Below are positions 35,489 to 48,420 of a stretch of 64,000 bases of DNA, in pieces (position 1 is the stretch's first letter; each line of letters opens with the position of its first letter). Where the stretch lies: positions 744,001-808,000 of the forward strand of contig JADILM010000011.1 in assembly GCA_016617785.1 (NCBI GenBank). Reading direction: 5' to 3'. Position numbers and translations under genes: made by a program. This DNA comes from Sporobolomyces roseus. Lineage: Eukaryota > Basidiomycota > Microbotryomycetes > Sporidiobolales > Sporidiobolaceae. A model generated the notes under the pieces. It was not told the origin of the DNA. It was given only the letters and a program-made list of their open reading frames with translations, and searched no databases.

Positions 35489-36930
35489 CTATTCCAACGA
35501 TAAAGCAAACCAGTTCTCCTCGGGTAGATCGATCTTGACGAGTTTCAGGTCGAGAGGGTCGAGATTGGTGACATCGACGTGCGACAGGAGTGGGTTGCAC
35601 GTTTGTAAGCGTTTGAAGGTTTCGAAAGACTTGCTCTGAAATGCTGAAATTACCGCACGATTTGCGATTTCGCGTCGGTAAGCCAACAAATCCTGCACGA
35701 TCGTAGCTCCCGGTCCTTCGAGCTGTATACCATTCGTGCGGACAGTATCGAAGAGACACGCCAGGTCTTCCTCGGTGAAGTGGAATAACTCGGGATATTT
35801 CCAACCATCGTCACCCATGTAGCGCACGACCGAACTGCAGACCTCATCGTCATTCGCTCCGACCCTGTGCCCTACAGAACTTCGGAAACAGTCGAGAATG
35901 AGACGAGAGAGGGAGGAATGTCTGGTCGAGCCTTTGAAGAGCGGGAGAAGGGTATCGATTTGGAGTGGGAGATGGGCGTCGATTCCAAGTCGGAGCGTAG
36001 ATAGCGAGGGCATCTGTCGTAGGTAGAGAGGTAGATCTTCGCTAGTGGTTCCGTCGCCGAGACTGAGGTAGGTAACGTGCGAGAACTGGGGAAGGAGGTG
36101 GTCGCAAGGGATGTCGAATGAATCGGTCAACCAAGCGCTATCTAGCTCGAGAGAGGTAAGTGTGGCGTAGAATTTGACCAATGCCGAAACGAAGCCTTCG
36201 TATTGCGGGTATACAGGGTCGAAGAGTCGGAGCGAGGTGATGTTCGGACAGCATTCGACGATGTCGGCGAGACTCGACTTCCAAATAGGCATCTCGAAAG
36301 CGGCATCACTGTCGAATTTGGACACTAAGCTGAGCTTGCTGAGCGAGTCCAAACGGGGCAAGGTGGAAGATTGAGGGAGAACATCGGTAGAATGGAAATT
36401 GATTTCGAGGGTCGAAAGGTTCAGATCGGCGAGGAAAGCGATGGCTGAGATATCCAGTGTGTCGCATTCATAAGAAAGGCGCTCGAGGGGAGGAAGAACG
36501 GTATGGGAGGAGGTGCGCTCGATAGGTTGAATGTAGCCAGTTTTGAGAGAATTGAGACGAGGAAACGGCTTGATGAACTCTTCGAAGGTCCCAGGCTCGG
36601 ATGTGTCCAACACTTCCGAAGTATCAAGATCCAGGACGAGCTCGCCGAGAGCAGGAGATGCTTTGACGGTTGCGAGGAGATTCGACCAAGAAGTGTCGAA
36701 AGAGATTCGAATTTGACGATAAAGGTTTCGACGGAAGTAAGGCAGAAGGCGCTTCGAGAGAGGTTCGAGGATTATCTTGTCGGGGTCGTGAGTTAGGTCG
36801 AAGATGGCGAGGAGAAGTTCGGGAGGGAGGGAAGAAAGTCGATCGATCTAGAGAGTGACGGGATTAGCTCTGGTTAGCGTAGAGAGTATGATGGACTCGC
36901 CTTATTACTACCACAGAGTATTGCATCCAT
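35489..36930 (-). CDS. F-box/LRR-like protein, copy 1
   Basis: 462 residues from a 10-codon first exon (36930-36901, MDAILCGSNK) and a long second exon (36847-35489). The intron begins with GC (gcgagt). The F-box-like start is IDRLSSLPPELLLAIFDL. Irregular leucine-rich repeats follow (LDSLSKLSLVSK, NITSLRLFDP, TLTSLELDSAW, HVTYLSLGDG, SLSTLRLGID, SLSRLILDCF). The end is LDLKLVKIDLPEENWFALSLE. F-box/LRR proteins usually pick substrates for SCF ubiquitin ligases; that role is inferred. It has exactly the predicted length of its neighbour at 37,404, with the same two-exon plan, so the pair is a tandem duplication. Confidence 0.8.
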
Positions 36931-37403: not shown

Positions 37404-38850
37404 TCACTCCAAACTCAATCTGAACCAATTCTTCTCTGGTAGTTCGGTCTTAACGAGCTTGAGGTTCTCGGGATCCAGATTGTGGACGGGAATATGTGAG
37501 AAACGAGGCGAATCGTTACGCAGCTTGACATCATGAAGCGATTTGAGCTGGAGGCATCGAAGAACAGAACGATTCGCTTCTTCAAGATCAAAGTTGGCCA
37601 TTGCCTCCAATATAAATGCTCCTTCTCCTTCAATAACCACTCCGTTTCCCTCACACGCAACAATGAGCTCCGTCAGGGATTCCAACGAGAAGTTGCCCAA
37701 CGATGAGATACTCCAACCATCGTTCATCATACTTTGCGATACACCGGAGCCGATCTGATCCTCCGGATTGATTCGTCGACCCGATTCTACTCCGAAACAG
37801 TCGAGGATCAGCCGCTGGAGGGAGACGAATCGGGTGGGTCCCTGAACGAGAGCGAGGAATTCCTCGGGTTCTAGCGGGAGATGAGCGTTGTCGGTGAGGC
37901 GCAGCGAGGTGAGTTGGGAATGTCGGCGCAAATTGATAAAGAGAGAGTTTCCAGTCGTACCGGCACCGAGACTGAGGTAGGAGAGATTGATGAATTGGGG
38001 AAGGAGGTGATCGCAGGAGAAAGCGTCGACATGCTGCATGAACCCACAATGATCGAGGGTCAACGAAGTGATTTGTGGAGCACAGGACGACATGTTGGAG
38101 AGGAAGTCTCGATAATCGGGATAGCGGAAGTCGCAAAGTCGGAGAGAAGTGATGTTTGGGTTGCAATCCGTGACGAATTTGGCGAAGGCGCTGGTCCAAA
38201 TAATCGTGTCTCGATCGCTTCGGTGGCTCCATAGAGTAACCTCCTCCACCGTCTCCAGCTTGGGCAAACAAGGAGGCGGATAGTTCGTGAGATCCACCGG
38301 ACGATGGGTATGGATTTCGAGAGTGCGAAGCTTGAGGCGAGAGAGGGTATCCAAGTCCTCCGTCGCAGGGTATCCACACTCGTACGAGAGATGCTCGATG
38401 GGTGGGAAGGAGACGTCCTGTCGAACATAACGAAGCGAACTAACGTATCCCGTTTTCACTGATTTGAGGGAGGGGAAGGATCCGATGATATCGTGGAAGT
38501 CGACCGAGGAGGGATATCGAAAGCCTCTAAAGATGTCGAGTTCTTTCACGAGGGTACCGAGAGAGGAAGAGGCGCGGATTGAGTCGAGGAGGGAGTAGAA
38601 AGAATCGACGGTGGTGAGTTGGATTCGACGGTAAAGAGTTTGGCGGTAGTAAGGGAGTAAGGATTTCGATAGGGGTGCAGTGAGGGGTTCAAGGGGGTTA
38701 TGAGCGAGGTCGAAGATGGTGAGAAGAAGTTCGGGAGGGAGAGAAGAGAGACGATCCATCTGCGAAGCGAGTGGATGGAGTCAGCTCTAAGCGAACTACA
38801 GCGAACTCTGAGCTTACCTTATCAGCTTTCGTAGGCTTTATAGCATCCAT
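37404..38850 (-). CDS. F-box/LRR-like protein, copy 2
   Basis: 462 residues, exons 38850-38818 (MDAIKPTKADK) and 38759-37404, joined by a GT-AG intron of 58 nt. F-box-like MDRLSSLPPELLLTIFDL, then PLSKSLLPYYRQTLYRRIQL as in copy 1. LRR-like segments: LRTLEIHTHR, NITSLRLCDF, QITSLTLDHCG, NLSYLSLGAGT, QLTSLRLTDN, SLQRLILDCF. The end (LKLVKTELPEKNWFRLSLE) matches copy 1 closely. The second exon also starts with ATG, so a shorter protein from 38,759 is possible. Its start lies only 170 bases from the divergent P4-ATPase gene. Confidence 0.8.
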
Positions 38851-45126: not shown

Positions 45127-45654
45127 TAGAGAGGAGAGACTGGGCAGCGGCTGGAAGAGGGTTTGGAACGGAGGTATTCGATGAATGAAAAAATTGTTTT
45201 ACGAAAAGGCTTGCTACCAGTTTGTAACAATCTTTTATGTTCTGCGGTGATTGACTCTCTCGTTTGTCTCGTGTGAGACTTGACGAGATCTGACTACTGC
45301 GCTCTATGCTGGAACGATTCTGGAGAGTCCGAACTTACCGGTCGCCCTTTCGAGAAGATCAAAAAGAGCGACTCTTTCTTCTCAGTCCGAAGCAGGACTA
45401 CTACCCTTTTGCTGCAGATCAGAGCAAAGCGTCGTGATGCAGAGGTGCACATTCGATAGATTGCGAAAAGAGGGGTGTTGCAGAATTGTCAAGAACAGTT
45501 ACGAAAGTCAGCCTCTTGCAGATTGATCCTCTATCTGATTGAGTAGAGAGCCAATCTCGACGCGAACACGTCAGCATTGAGCCGGTAGTGTCATAGTAAA
45601 ATCCGAACTTACGAAACGACCGCACTCCCAGTCGAGTCAATCTCATTCTCTCGT
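45127..45654. other. Intergenic region between converging genes
   Basis: About 530 bases without a recognised gene. Confidence 0.4.
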
Positions 45655-46127
45655 TTACTCCGATTTTCCCTCGAACTCCTCTTTCGTCTCTTGCGTCTCT
45701 CTCCTCCAATCCCTGATCCTCGCCTCTGCGTCCTTCTCTTCCTCGCTGCCCTCACCTCCTACCTTTCCCTTCTTCGCGTTTCGAACGTTTCCAGTTCGAG
45801 TACGCTTCTTCCCCTTGCCTCCCTTGTCCTCGCTCTCCTCTTCTTGAGCCTTGTCCTTCGGTTCTCCCGCTAATCTCTTCCTCTTGGCTGACCTTGTTTC
45901 GACAATCTTGCTTGAGCTAGGTCCAGCATCCGTCGGAACGTCGAACCAACGACTATCGGTGAGAGCTGCGATCTCCTTCGCTCCCGGCTTGTATTTCGGC
46001 TTCGGGGGAGAGGACTCCCTGGTGATCGAGGGCTCTGCGGGAGGAGCACGGCGGCGAGGAGGTGAGCGATTGAGCGGACCAGGACGTCCCCTGTACTCTT
46101 TCGACCCGTGATCATGGTACGAGTCAT
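45655..46127 (-). CDS. Histone H3 tail-like protein 3 (degenerate tail)
   Basis: Proposed exons 46127-46086 and 46032-45655 (53-nt intron, donor gtcctg, acceptor gcagag), about 139 residues. The first exon reads MTRTMITGRKSTGD, matching the H3 tail at R2, T3, T6, R8, K9, S10, T11 and G12 but with K4 changed to M and A7 to G. The second exon encodes a charged protein: KPKYKPGAKEIAALTDSRWF, basic clusters SAKRKRLA and GKKRTRTG, and acidic EEESEDKG and GSEEEKDAE. The donor is weak. If no intron is removed, the H3-like frame stops earlier, and the longer acidic/basic frame has no ATG of its own that I can find. It could therefore also be a decaying copy. Confidence 0.45.
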
Positions 46128-46494
46128 CTCTATCGATGATGAGAACGAATGGGGAAGTAGAAAGGAGAGAATAGAATCTCGCTGATTCCACTCATTCTCG
46201 AACTCCGAGCGATTCCGCGGCTATCTCTCCCAGTCTTTGAGGAGCACTTCGAGGTGGTAGAGAGTGAGATCGCTTTGAGCTCCGACTGACTGGTGAGCGT
46301 GTTGCGAAAACGACGACTTCCGAAGAATTTGGAAGCGAAAAGTGGCAGGTTCAAGCGGTTTGATTTTGTCACTGAAATCAAGCGTACAGAGGAGTTAGCC
46401 AAACTGAATATGATTCGAGAGGAATCAGCTTCGAGCGAATAGACTCGCGGGAAAAGTCCAAACTTACGATGCGAAACTTTTCCCGTTCAATTCC
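46128..46494. other. Spacer between H3-tail-like genes 3 and 2
   Basis: A minus-strand frame (46,130-46,402) is open but has no recognised motifs. It probably holds the leader or promoter of gene 3. Confidence 0.3.
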
Positions 46495-46974
46495 TCAGTT
46501 CGGCTCCTCCAACTTTTCCTCGAGCTCTTTGATGTCTTTTGAAACGTAGCCTACATCGTTTCTCACCTTCTTGATCCTTTCCTCCACACTCTGTACTCGG
46601 TCGTCCAACGTGACTTGCTGATTCGTGATTCCTGAATTCCCTGCTCCTTCTTGCGTCGACTCACTGCTTCCACCCGCCATCATCTGGGCATTCTCCCTGA
46701 TAGTCTCGGCTCCACTCCCAGGTCTTTGATCTGTCATCTTTTGCGATGATACCCTTTCGATAGCTCCGCTTCTCTTTTCCTTTCCAATGCCTCCACCATC
46801 CTCCTCGTCCGAAGTAAGTATAGGTCCAGGTGTACCTCGATCGATGTACGCAATTGGGTGCTCTGGACTGGGTGAGTTCGATGGAGTTCGGCTGTCATCG
46901 AGGTGATGTACCATTCGCGCTTGAGGAGGTCGACCTCCAGTAGACTTGCGAGCGGTTTGCTTGGTACGAGCCAT
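46495..46974 (-). CDS. Histone H3 tail-like protein 2 with coiled-coil end
   Basis: Intronless frame of 159 residues. It begins MARTKQTARKSTGGRPPQ: after Met the first 13 residues equal the invariant tail of histone H3 (A1 to G13), including K4, R8, K9, S10 and T11. It then departs completely, with R at position 14. No histone fold follows. The middle is disordered and acidic (SDEEDGGGIGKEK), and the last about 40 residues form a probable coiled coil (LDDRVQSVEERIKKVRND...KDIKELEEKLEE). If Met is removed as in H3, the N-terminus would be a substrate or ligand for H3K4/K9 enzymes and readers; this is inference. A long purine-rich tract on the plus strand (CT-rich leader) lies just upstream. 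Confidence 0.8.
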   Translation of the reverse strand: MARTKQTARKSTGGRPPQARMVHHLDDSRTPSNSPSPEHPIAYIDRGTPGPILTSDEEDGGGIGKEKRSGAIERVSSQKMTDQRPGSGAETIRENAQMMAGGSSESTQEGAGNSGITNQQVTLDDRVQSVEERIKKVRNDVGYVSKDIKELEEKLEEPN

Positions 46975-47018
46975 GCTCGGTCAGTAGCGGGATCGAGCTG
47001 AGAGGTCGAGAGGCGTGA

Positions 47019-47092
47019 GCGAAGAGAGAGAGAGAGAAAGAAAGAGAGCAGGAGAGAGCGAGAAAAAAAGATCGAAGAAAGAGGAAGTCCGG
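47019..47092 (-). promoter_or_regulatory. CT-rich tract before H3-tail-like gene 2
   Basis: About 75 bases of nearly pure pyrimidine on the coding (minus) strand, ending some 45 bases before the ATG. Such tracts precede several start codons in this window and probably mark promoter or leader DNA. Confidence 0.35.
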
Positions 47093-47497
47093 AATCGGCC
47101 GCGGCGTTTCTCTCGCTCCCATTCTGAACTGCTGATTTGGATAATCCGTACTCATCAGTTGAGCAGTGAGTAGTAGAGCTGACGACGTCGGCCAGCTGTT
47201 GTCCCAAAAGTGCCTCCGACTGTTCGGCAATAGAATCGCTCGAAAAAGCGGTGATGCCACTATCGAGTTCAGCAGCTTGACCTGGCCCAGCCACAGCGGG
47301 AACGGTTGTGAGATTGGTCGGGAAGAGCATTTGTTAGATTGCGACGACTGTTGATACTGAAAGCAAAGTAAAGCGAAAAGTAGGAAAGTAAATCAATTCG
47401 AAACGATTGCGTCCTGTCAAGCTAGACACACACGACCTTGATCATGTCAGTATCTCCCGAGAGATTTCACGTGAGAGACAAGTAGAGGAGCGTACCA
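47093..47497. other. Spacer between H3-tail-like genes 2 and 1
   Basis: A minus-strand frame from 47,330 (MLFPTNLTTVPAVAG...) stays open for about 75 residues before running into the CT-rich tract. No family recognised; possibly upstream leader DNA. Confidence 0.3.
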
Positions 47498-47974
47498 CTA
47501 CTCTTTCGATTCTGCGACGACTTCATTCTTCGACTCATTGACAGATTTCTCCTCTTCAACAGCCTTTCCTCCTTCAACTTCAGGTTGAGCGACAGTGGCT
47601 TGAGGCGTATCCTCCTGAACTACTTGAGGTTCAGACTCGGTAACTCCCTCAGTCTCCATAACTCCCTCGTTCTCCTTCGCAACGATTTCCTCCTCAGGTT
47701 GAACTGCATCGCTCGCGAGTTGATCCTCCTCCTCACCAGCCGGAGTCTCAACTTTACGTTTCTTCTGAGCAGGTTCTTCTTCTTCTTTCTCCTCCTCCTG
47801 TTGTTCCTCCTCTTCCTGTTCCTCTTCACCACTTCCAGCGTTTCCCTCTTCTTCGTTAGGATCGATAGCTTGTCGACTGGCGAGTTCAGCTTTCGAAACT
47901 ACTTTCTTGGCGAGCTGCTTCCTTGGAGCTTGGCCACCGGTGGATTTGCGTGCAATCTTCTTCGTGCGAGTCAT
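47498..47974 (-). CDS. Histone H3 tail-like protein 1 with acidic body
   Basis: Intronless frame of 158 residues starting MTRTKKIARKSTGGQAPR followed by KQLAKKVVSK. Resemblance to H3 runs to about residue 27: K4, R8, K9, S10, T11, R17, K18, K23 and K27 positions are kept, while K14 is Q and A1 is T. From about residue 35 it becomes strongly acidic (runs of E), with a basic cluster QKKRKVE like a nuclear localisation signal near residue 73, then an E/V/T-rich tail. There is no histone-fold helix. The acidic body recalls histone chaperones in composition only. It is the upstream-most of three tandem genes in the same direction. Confidence 0.8.
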   Translation of the reverse strand: MTRTKKIARKSTGGQAPRKQLAKKVVSKAELASRQAIDPNEEEGNAGSGEEEQEEEEQQEEEKEEEEPAQKKRKVETPAGEEEDQLASDAVQPEEEIVAKENEGVMETEGVTESEPQVVQEDTPQATVAQPEVEGGKAVEEEKSVNESKNEVVAESKE

Positions 47975-48420
47975 TGAAGTCTGGAATGAAAGAAACGAGA
48001 AAGTGGGAAGAAGTGGGAAACAAAACGAGACGATCAGAGTTGATCAGCGAGCCGTAGAATGCTTAATGGGTGATAGAGGGATTAGCATACCTTCTGCAGG
48101 CTCTTGTAGAGCTTGAAGAGCAGTTGAAGAAGTGAGAGGAGAGAGAAAGAGAAGCGGGAGACGGGAAAACTTCAGAGTGGACAACTCCGCTCTTTCTCCG
48201 CGGCTTTGATTCAGGTTATTTCGGGTGTGACAAACCTGCATGAGCATCAGATGAGAGAGAGCGAACCAGGGAGCCCAGAGAGCGGCTCGAGAATAGCGGT
48301 CTCGAGGAAAAGTCGAAATGAGATTCGCTTCGCAACTCATGAAATCGATCGAAGGATACTCTCCCTCCTTAGCTCCAAGTAATCTCATCATATCGTATAC
48401 AATACAAGCACTGAATCCAT
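47975..48420. other. Intergenic region
   Basis: Upstream of H3-tail-like gene 1 and downstream of PEX14. No gene recognised. Confidence 0.4.

Follow-up and report, generated by a model that had tools for sequence, protein, structure and literature searches.

Three adjacent genes on the minus strand of the analysed window, a 64,000-nucleotide stretch of Sporobolomyces roseus DNA, encode proteins which open with a histone H3-like tail and in which no histone fold was found. On balance, we favour the reading that these genes (genes 1-3) encode H3-tail mimics which work in trans and outside the nucleosome, and that they form a small tandem family. The H3 N-terminus, covering approximately residues 1-28 in gene 1, would form the free N-terminal end of a protein which is disordered and probably nuclear; selection would keep this tail because it binds readers and modifiers of the H3 tail, and the mimic would act in trans as an adaptor, a competitor or a surrogate substrate. 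We infer from the sequence that the mimics are expressed, reach the nucleus and bind a partner through the tail; on the same basis the tail proteins could have the roles which an earlier note on this DNA had proposed, namely recruitment, competition, modification or chaperone-like action.

H3-like tails with no histone fold found

The minus-strand frames at positions 47498-47974 (gene 1, 158 aa), 46495-46974 (gene 2, 159 aa) and 45870-46127 (gene 3) start with MTRTKKIARKSTGG, MARTKQTARKSTGG and MTRTMITGRKSTGD, respectively. When compared with H3 residues 1-13, the three openings show 10/13, 13/13 and 8/13 identical residues, while the runner-up among the 1,547 ATGs of the window reaches 5/13 and the top score in 60 Markov-simulated windows (90,462 ATGs) is 6/13. 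The tails are thus far beyond chance expectation, in agreement with the earlier note, whose further statement that the full first 13 residues are carried applies to gene 2 and not to genes 1 and 3. The start ATG of each gene is the first in-frame Met after the upstream stop. For gene 1 this is so with or without splicing of a putative 5' UTR intron (47981-48090, minus strand; GT...AG, 110 nt), which ends 6 nt before the ATG, and the unspliced upstream translation looks, by eye, like that of the metagenomic relative P0004. A 38-nt DNA repeat spans the starts of genes 1-3, the other two copies being 71 and 61% identical to the copy of gene 3.

A Pex14 gene lies upstream of genes 1-3, all three of which are co-oriented, and the window also encodes an RNA polymerase gene of the Rpb2 type. 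Elsewhere in the window, two long frames of similar sequence lie side by side (35489-36847 and 37404-38780, minus strand); each has DRLSSLPPELLLxIFDL close to its start and is F-box-like by eye. A Pfam search on the frame at 35489-36847 gave no match.

Residues R2, T3, R8, K9, T11, G12 and G13 are common to the tails of genes 1 and 2 and of the metagenomic proteins P0002-P0005, and S10 is present in all of these except P0004, which has Gly there. The window copy of gene 3 retains the common residues as far as G12. The K4 position is not conserved across the tails, being occupied by Met in gene 3, and in genes 1 and 3 of the window Ala1 is replaced by Thr.

As regards histone H3 membership, the N-terminal tail was found in these proteins and the histone fold domain was not. 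A full-length H3 query on C11, the contig carrying the window in this 22.4-Mb, 15-contig genome, gave matches confined to H3 residues 1-41 (gene 1) and 1-25 (gene 2). In a six-frame scan of the genome with the Pfam histone family at E up to 10, for which the best candidates only were scored, none of the 26 matches listed was on C11. No Pfam family was detected at cut-off in the proteins of genes 1-3, and six of the eight metagenomic relatives likewise gave none with E up to 0.1. ATG scoring, the Pfam scan and the H3 query together bear out the claim of three adjacent proteins with an H3-like tail and no detected histone fold. A histone pseudogene or a split H3 gene was rejected, contig C11 having no histone-fold match among those listed. 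In a charge-hydropathy plot the proteins of genes 1-3 fall on the disordered side and the H3 core on the folded side. NLS-like clusters are present in genes 1 and 3, gene 2 having none by the pattern used, and no PxVxL motif was found in the three proteins.

The individual genes, their relatives and kinship

Gene 1 joins its H3-like tail to an acidic body containing a KKRKV motif. Its coding score is 0.323 bits/codon, with the five remaining frames negative, in a model trained on seven stretches of the same window. Three metagenomic proteins match the full query, at 93% (P0002), 90% (P0003) and 62% (P0004) identity. Over H3 residues 1-28 gene 1 is identical at 19/28 positions and each of these relatives at 20/28. 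All three relatives start with MARTK, nearer to H3 than the MTRTK of the window copy, and for this reason Thr in place of Ala in window gene 1 is probably derived. Q5-T6 of H3 correspond to K-I in gene 1, the K14 position is occupied by Gln in three of the four gene 1 proteins (gene 1, P0002 and P0003), and the K18 and K23 positions are kept in gene 1.

A profile of gene 1 and P0002-P0004 was compared with the PDB, and the best 60 of 130 matches were H3 or H3/CENP-A chimeras; the matches fall within residues 1-39 of gene 1 (47858-47974, minus strand), at the H3 N-terminus. Between gene 1 and P0004, 3 of 36 positions differ in residues 1-36 and 38 of 110 in the remainder of the protein (Fisher P 0.0024), while the same contrast is not significant with P0002 and P0003 (P 0.46 and 0.68). 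At the residues which gene 1 has in common with H3, codons coincide in 3, 3 and 2 of 10 cases when compared with three H3 genes, with 3.5 expected; the residues are kept and the codons are at chance level, therefore the identity appears to be held at the protein level. Since the tail is more conserved than the body in the comparison with P0004 and the codons are at chance, protein-level selection probably holds the gene 1 tail. An AlphaFold2 model from four sequences is of low confidence (mean pLDDT 55.6, pTM 0.17), its sole helix comprising 8 residues (28-35), and gene 1 would accordingly have no fold, as far as a four-sequence alignment can tell. No match to gene 1 was found in viral contigs, and none to genes 1 and 3 in contigs of prokaryote genomes, both being collections not expected to contain fungal genomes.

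Gene 2 continues beyond its perfect H3 1-13 tail with a middle rich in serine and proline and a C-terminus that is charged and coil-like, and its coding score is 0.118 bits/codon, the five remaining frames being negative. All 20 of its PDB matches are N-terminal and involve H3, H3 peptides or Cse4. Among genes 1-3 it is the nearest to H3 in DNA. Codons 1-14 (46933-46974, minus strand) agree with an H3 gene of contig C2 at 39/42 nt and 10/13 codons, with P 0.0016 for codon sharing, uncorrected over nine comparisons; with the two H3 genes of contig C4 the codon agreement is 8/13 (P 0.050) and 9/13 (P 0.0096). The gene 2 tail, as judged from its codons, may reflect either a later capture or conversion by an H3 gene. 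The metagenomic fragment P0001 is 96% identical to the gene 2 body over 55% of the query; it has a three-residue insertion relative to gene 2 and begins at an internal Met, so that it lacks the tail region.

Gene 3 (45655-46127, minus strand) has its tail and body in different frames. The tail, with Met at the H3 K4 position, occupies codons 1-13 (46089-46127), and the body lies in a coding-like frame (GRPGPLNRSPP..., 45655-46089) which is offset from the tail frame in the assembly. Past codon 13, the ATG frame (85 aa, starting with MTRTMITGRKSTGD) is not coding-like (-0.170 bits/codon), while over 45658-46086 the overlapping 178-aa frame has a score of 0.104 bits/codon, with negative values in the remaining five frames there. 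Metagenomic relatives P0005, P0006 and P0007 show 89, 86 and 85% identity. P0005 carries tail and body in a single frame, opening with MTRTMITGRKSTGGRPGP; in P0006 and P0007 the called start is the second Met, and from there on they share the gene 3-type frame; P0008 matches gene 3 in the C-terminal half only. Because tail and body form one frame in P0005 and two here, the window copy is either disrupted or mis-assembled; an intact gene 3 is present in a relative, as read from the P0005 sequence. The idea that an intron accounts for the change of frame was rejected by eye, P0005-P0007 retaining the residues that would be removed. Met at the K4 position is found in two sequences, window gene 3 and P0005, and is absent from genes 1 and 2. 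At the residues common to gene 3 and H3, codons coincide in 1-2 of 8 cases (2.4 expected by chance), and therefore here too H3 identity seems to be held at the protein level.

Genes 2 and 3 are also related at their 3' ends. The end of gene 2 (46339-46541, minus strand), consisting of C-terminal codons, stop and a 3' UTR with a GTAAGT donor-like site, is homologous to that of gene 3 (45504-45693, minus strand): the local alignment of approximately 200 bp has a score of 63, reached by 0/500 shuffles and 0/242 control windows. Both ends contain CGTAAGTTYGGA (46457-46468 in gene 2, 45602-45613 in gene 3), a motif which taken alone occurs no less often than chance would give (9 matches vs 5.5 expected). 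Downstream of gene 3, at 45328-45339 (minus strand), there is another GTAAGTTCGGA, possibly the remnant of a duplicated 3' end or a chance occurrence. BLASTP of gene 2 beyond the tail against P0005 or gene 3 gave no convincing protein similarity (best E 0.18). Given the shared 3' ends, the simplest reading would be that genes 2 and 3 are tandem duplicates in which the two ends were preserved and the middle part diverged. Kinship of gene 1 to genes 2 and 3 beyond the tail appears marginal: at the 3' ends 2/500 shuffles reach the score for genes 1 and 2 and 73/500 that for genes 1 and 3. At the 5' flanks the corresponding numbers are 17/500 for genes 1 and 2, and 201/500 and 237/500 for the other pairs. 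The proposal of a tandem family, partly supported, gains from the metagenomic relatives and from the homology of genes 2 and 3 at the 3' ends and tails, and loses from the frame disruption of gene 3 in the assembly.

Genomic setting and competing explanations

The genome contains at least four full H3 genes, two on C4 and two on C2, the latter forming an inverted pair. The C2 genes, at 581471 (minus) and 588922 (plus), lie approximately 7.5 kb apart, have an intron after codon 5 and are identical for 850 bases from the ATG, not across the whole 3-kb loci. Divergent H3-like exons at C7:220781-221390 and C4:237304-237602 are candidates for a centromeric H3 or a variant. The pattern M-[ASTP]-[RS]-T-K has 47 sites in the genome: the four H3 genes, genes 1 and 2, and 41 sites not continuing as H3. 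Since this pattern misses gene 3, and a search with short tails missed genes 2 and 3, further members of the tail family may be present elsewhere in the genome. The RKSTG pattern was rejected as a family finder, being too unspecific (176 matches vs 160 for the reversed control). Two frames opening with MTRTKQKARRGQ (L022, C3:2067376) and MARTKQNRRTLP (L100, C8:275375) are H3-like for a few residues only.

As for enzymes and readers of the H3 tail, the genome encodes a Set1-like H3K4 methyltransferase fragment and an HP1-like chromodomain, the one typed out of 12 chromodomain matches. Out of 24 SET matches, the five fragments examined are Set2-, SUV420-, Set1- and Ash1/NSD-like, with one showing a single weak match. 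SET matches in opposed pairs of equal or near-equal scores (C6:1401177 and C6:1405436; C6:823356-834547) suggest local duplicates. A K9 methyltransferase was not found by a Pre-SET search, which had no match and no positive control. In a six-frame exon search LSD1 was not seen: none of two SWIRM and six amine-oxidase matches shared a contig, and the weaker SWIRM match is Ada2-like. This weakened a reading of the tails through LSD1 in the manner of SNAG domains (passages on LSD1 are in PMC6320820).

The tail might serve simply as a nuclear import signal and not as a chromatin mimic, which we regard as unlikely. Residues 1-28 of H3 are described in passages of PMC5677370 as the yeast H3 NLS, a cargo signal of Kap123, which binds K14 and K23, and gene 1 does retain 19/28 of this stretch, K23 included. 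However, K14 is replaced by Gln in gene 1, P0002 and P0003, and K14Q strongly lowered import of an H3-NLS reporter according to the same passages; moreover, the K14-K23 part is missing from genes 2 and 3, gene 1 contains a KKRKV motif apart from the tail, and import alone leaves the R2-T3...RKSTGG core at the extreme N-terminus unexplained. It seems quite improbable that the proteins are PAF15-like factors, whose H3-like N-terminus would engage a UHRF1-type PHD finger in replication-coupled maintenance of DNA methylation. The analogy is that the N-terminal VRTK of disordered PAF15 is bound by the UHRF1 PHD like H3 ARTK (part of PMC7060239), and in gene 1 the K18 and K23 positions, too, are retained; against it, the PIP box Q..[ILMV]..[FYW][FYW] is matched in 0/3 window proteins and gene 3 has Met at K4.

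That same Met could make gene 3 a natural inhibitor of the K4M-like type, directed at an H3K4 enzyme in the way that K27M-like EZHIP is directed at PRC2, an analogy to which we would give little credence. Window gene 3 and P0005 share the Met, the genome has the Set1-like SET fragment, and EZHIP offers the precedent of a K-to-M-like inhibitor protein (PMC6513997), but the Met is retained in two sequences only, window gene 3 is frame-disrupted, and LSD1 was not seen, SWIRM and amine-oxidase matches sharing no contig. A slender chance is left to the view that the genes are relics, chimeras which captured the 5' coding end of H3 and carry a tail without specific function. The DNA of the gene 2 tail is indeed close to H3 (39/42 nt; P 0.0016 for codon sharing, uncorrected) and gene 3 is frame-disrupted in the assembly, but the gene 1 tail outlasts synonymous divergence and is found in three relatives, and gene 3 has an intact relative (P0005).

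Within the favoured reading of H3-tail mimicry in trans, the core R2-T3...R8-K9-S10-T11-G12(-G13) suggests as possible partners proteins that read or write the K9 block, or two-point readers of the N-terminus and K9. The K9 block comes into question because R8-G12, the part kept in the three window tails, is all that the Neurospora K9 methyltransferase DIM-5 required in vitro, as stated in sections of PMC3248561. Against K9-block reading is the Gly at the S10 position of P0004, S10G having been scored negative for DIM-5 activity in those sections. More tentatively, the genes may form a dedicated tandem family in which the H3 tail is uncoupled from the nucleosome and soluble mimics modulate the readers and writers of that tail; its members would have, respectively, much of residues 1-28 under selection, a perfect 1-13, and a K4M-like core.

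Comparison with known H3 mimics

H3 mimicry by non-histone proteins is already known, as the reports on PAF15, whose N-terminus engages an H3-tail reader (PMC7060239), and on EZHIP (PMC6513997) indicate. No native fungal H3-tail mimic was found in the literature, as covered by titles and abstract openings, and annotated orthologues in named fungi, outside the collections compared here, may exist. If the favoured reading is true, a protein reproducing as many as 28 positions of the H3 N-terminus outside any nucleosome would be a natural experiment on the off-chromatin tail, and signals of anti-H3-tail antibodies in this lineage would be worth re-checking. The tails also offer natural variants of tail recognition, namely K4M, K14Q, S10G and Thr for Ala1.

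Canonical histone H3 has the N-terminal tail in common with genes 1-3, in which the histone fold was not found. The likeness to vertebrate PAF15/PCLAF, judged here by sequence, lies in a disordered protein with an H3-like free N-terminus. PAF15 reaches PCNA via its PIP box, whereas genes 1-3 have no PIP-box match, and unlike in PAF15 the H3-like stretch of gene 1 extends to residue 28 and a tandem set of three is present here. EZHIP is likewise a non-histone protein with an H3-like segment, and gene 3 has Met at the target-lysine position; however, the segment is C-terminal and K27-like in EZHIP and N-terminal and K4-like in gene 3, for which inhibition is only a candidate function. The SNAG-domain proteins SNAI1 and GFI1 are H3 mimics for LSD1, with the mimicry at the extreme N-terminus, and the H3 identity of the window tails is presumably longer than theirs. 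The H3-mimic motifs of PAF15, EZHIP and the SNAG proteins are short. What sets genes 1-3 apart from these, as far as the sequences tell, is how long the H3 copy is and that it is placed at the terminus, together with its tandem set.
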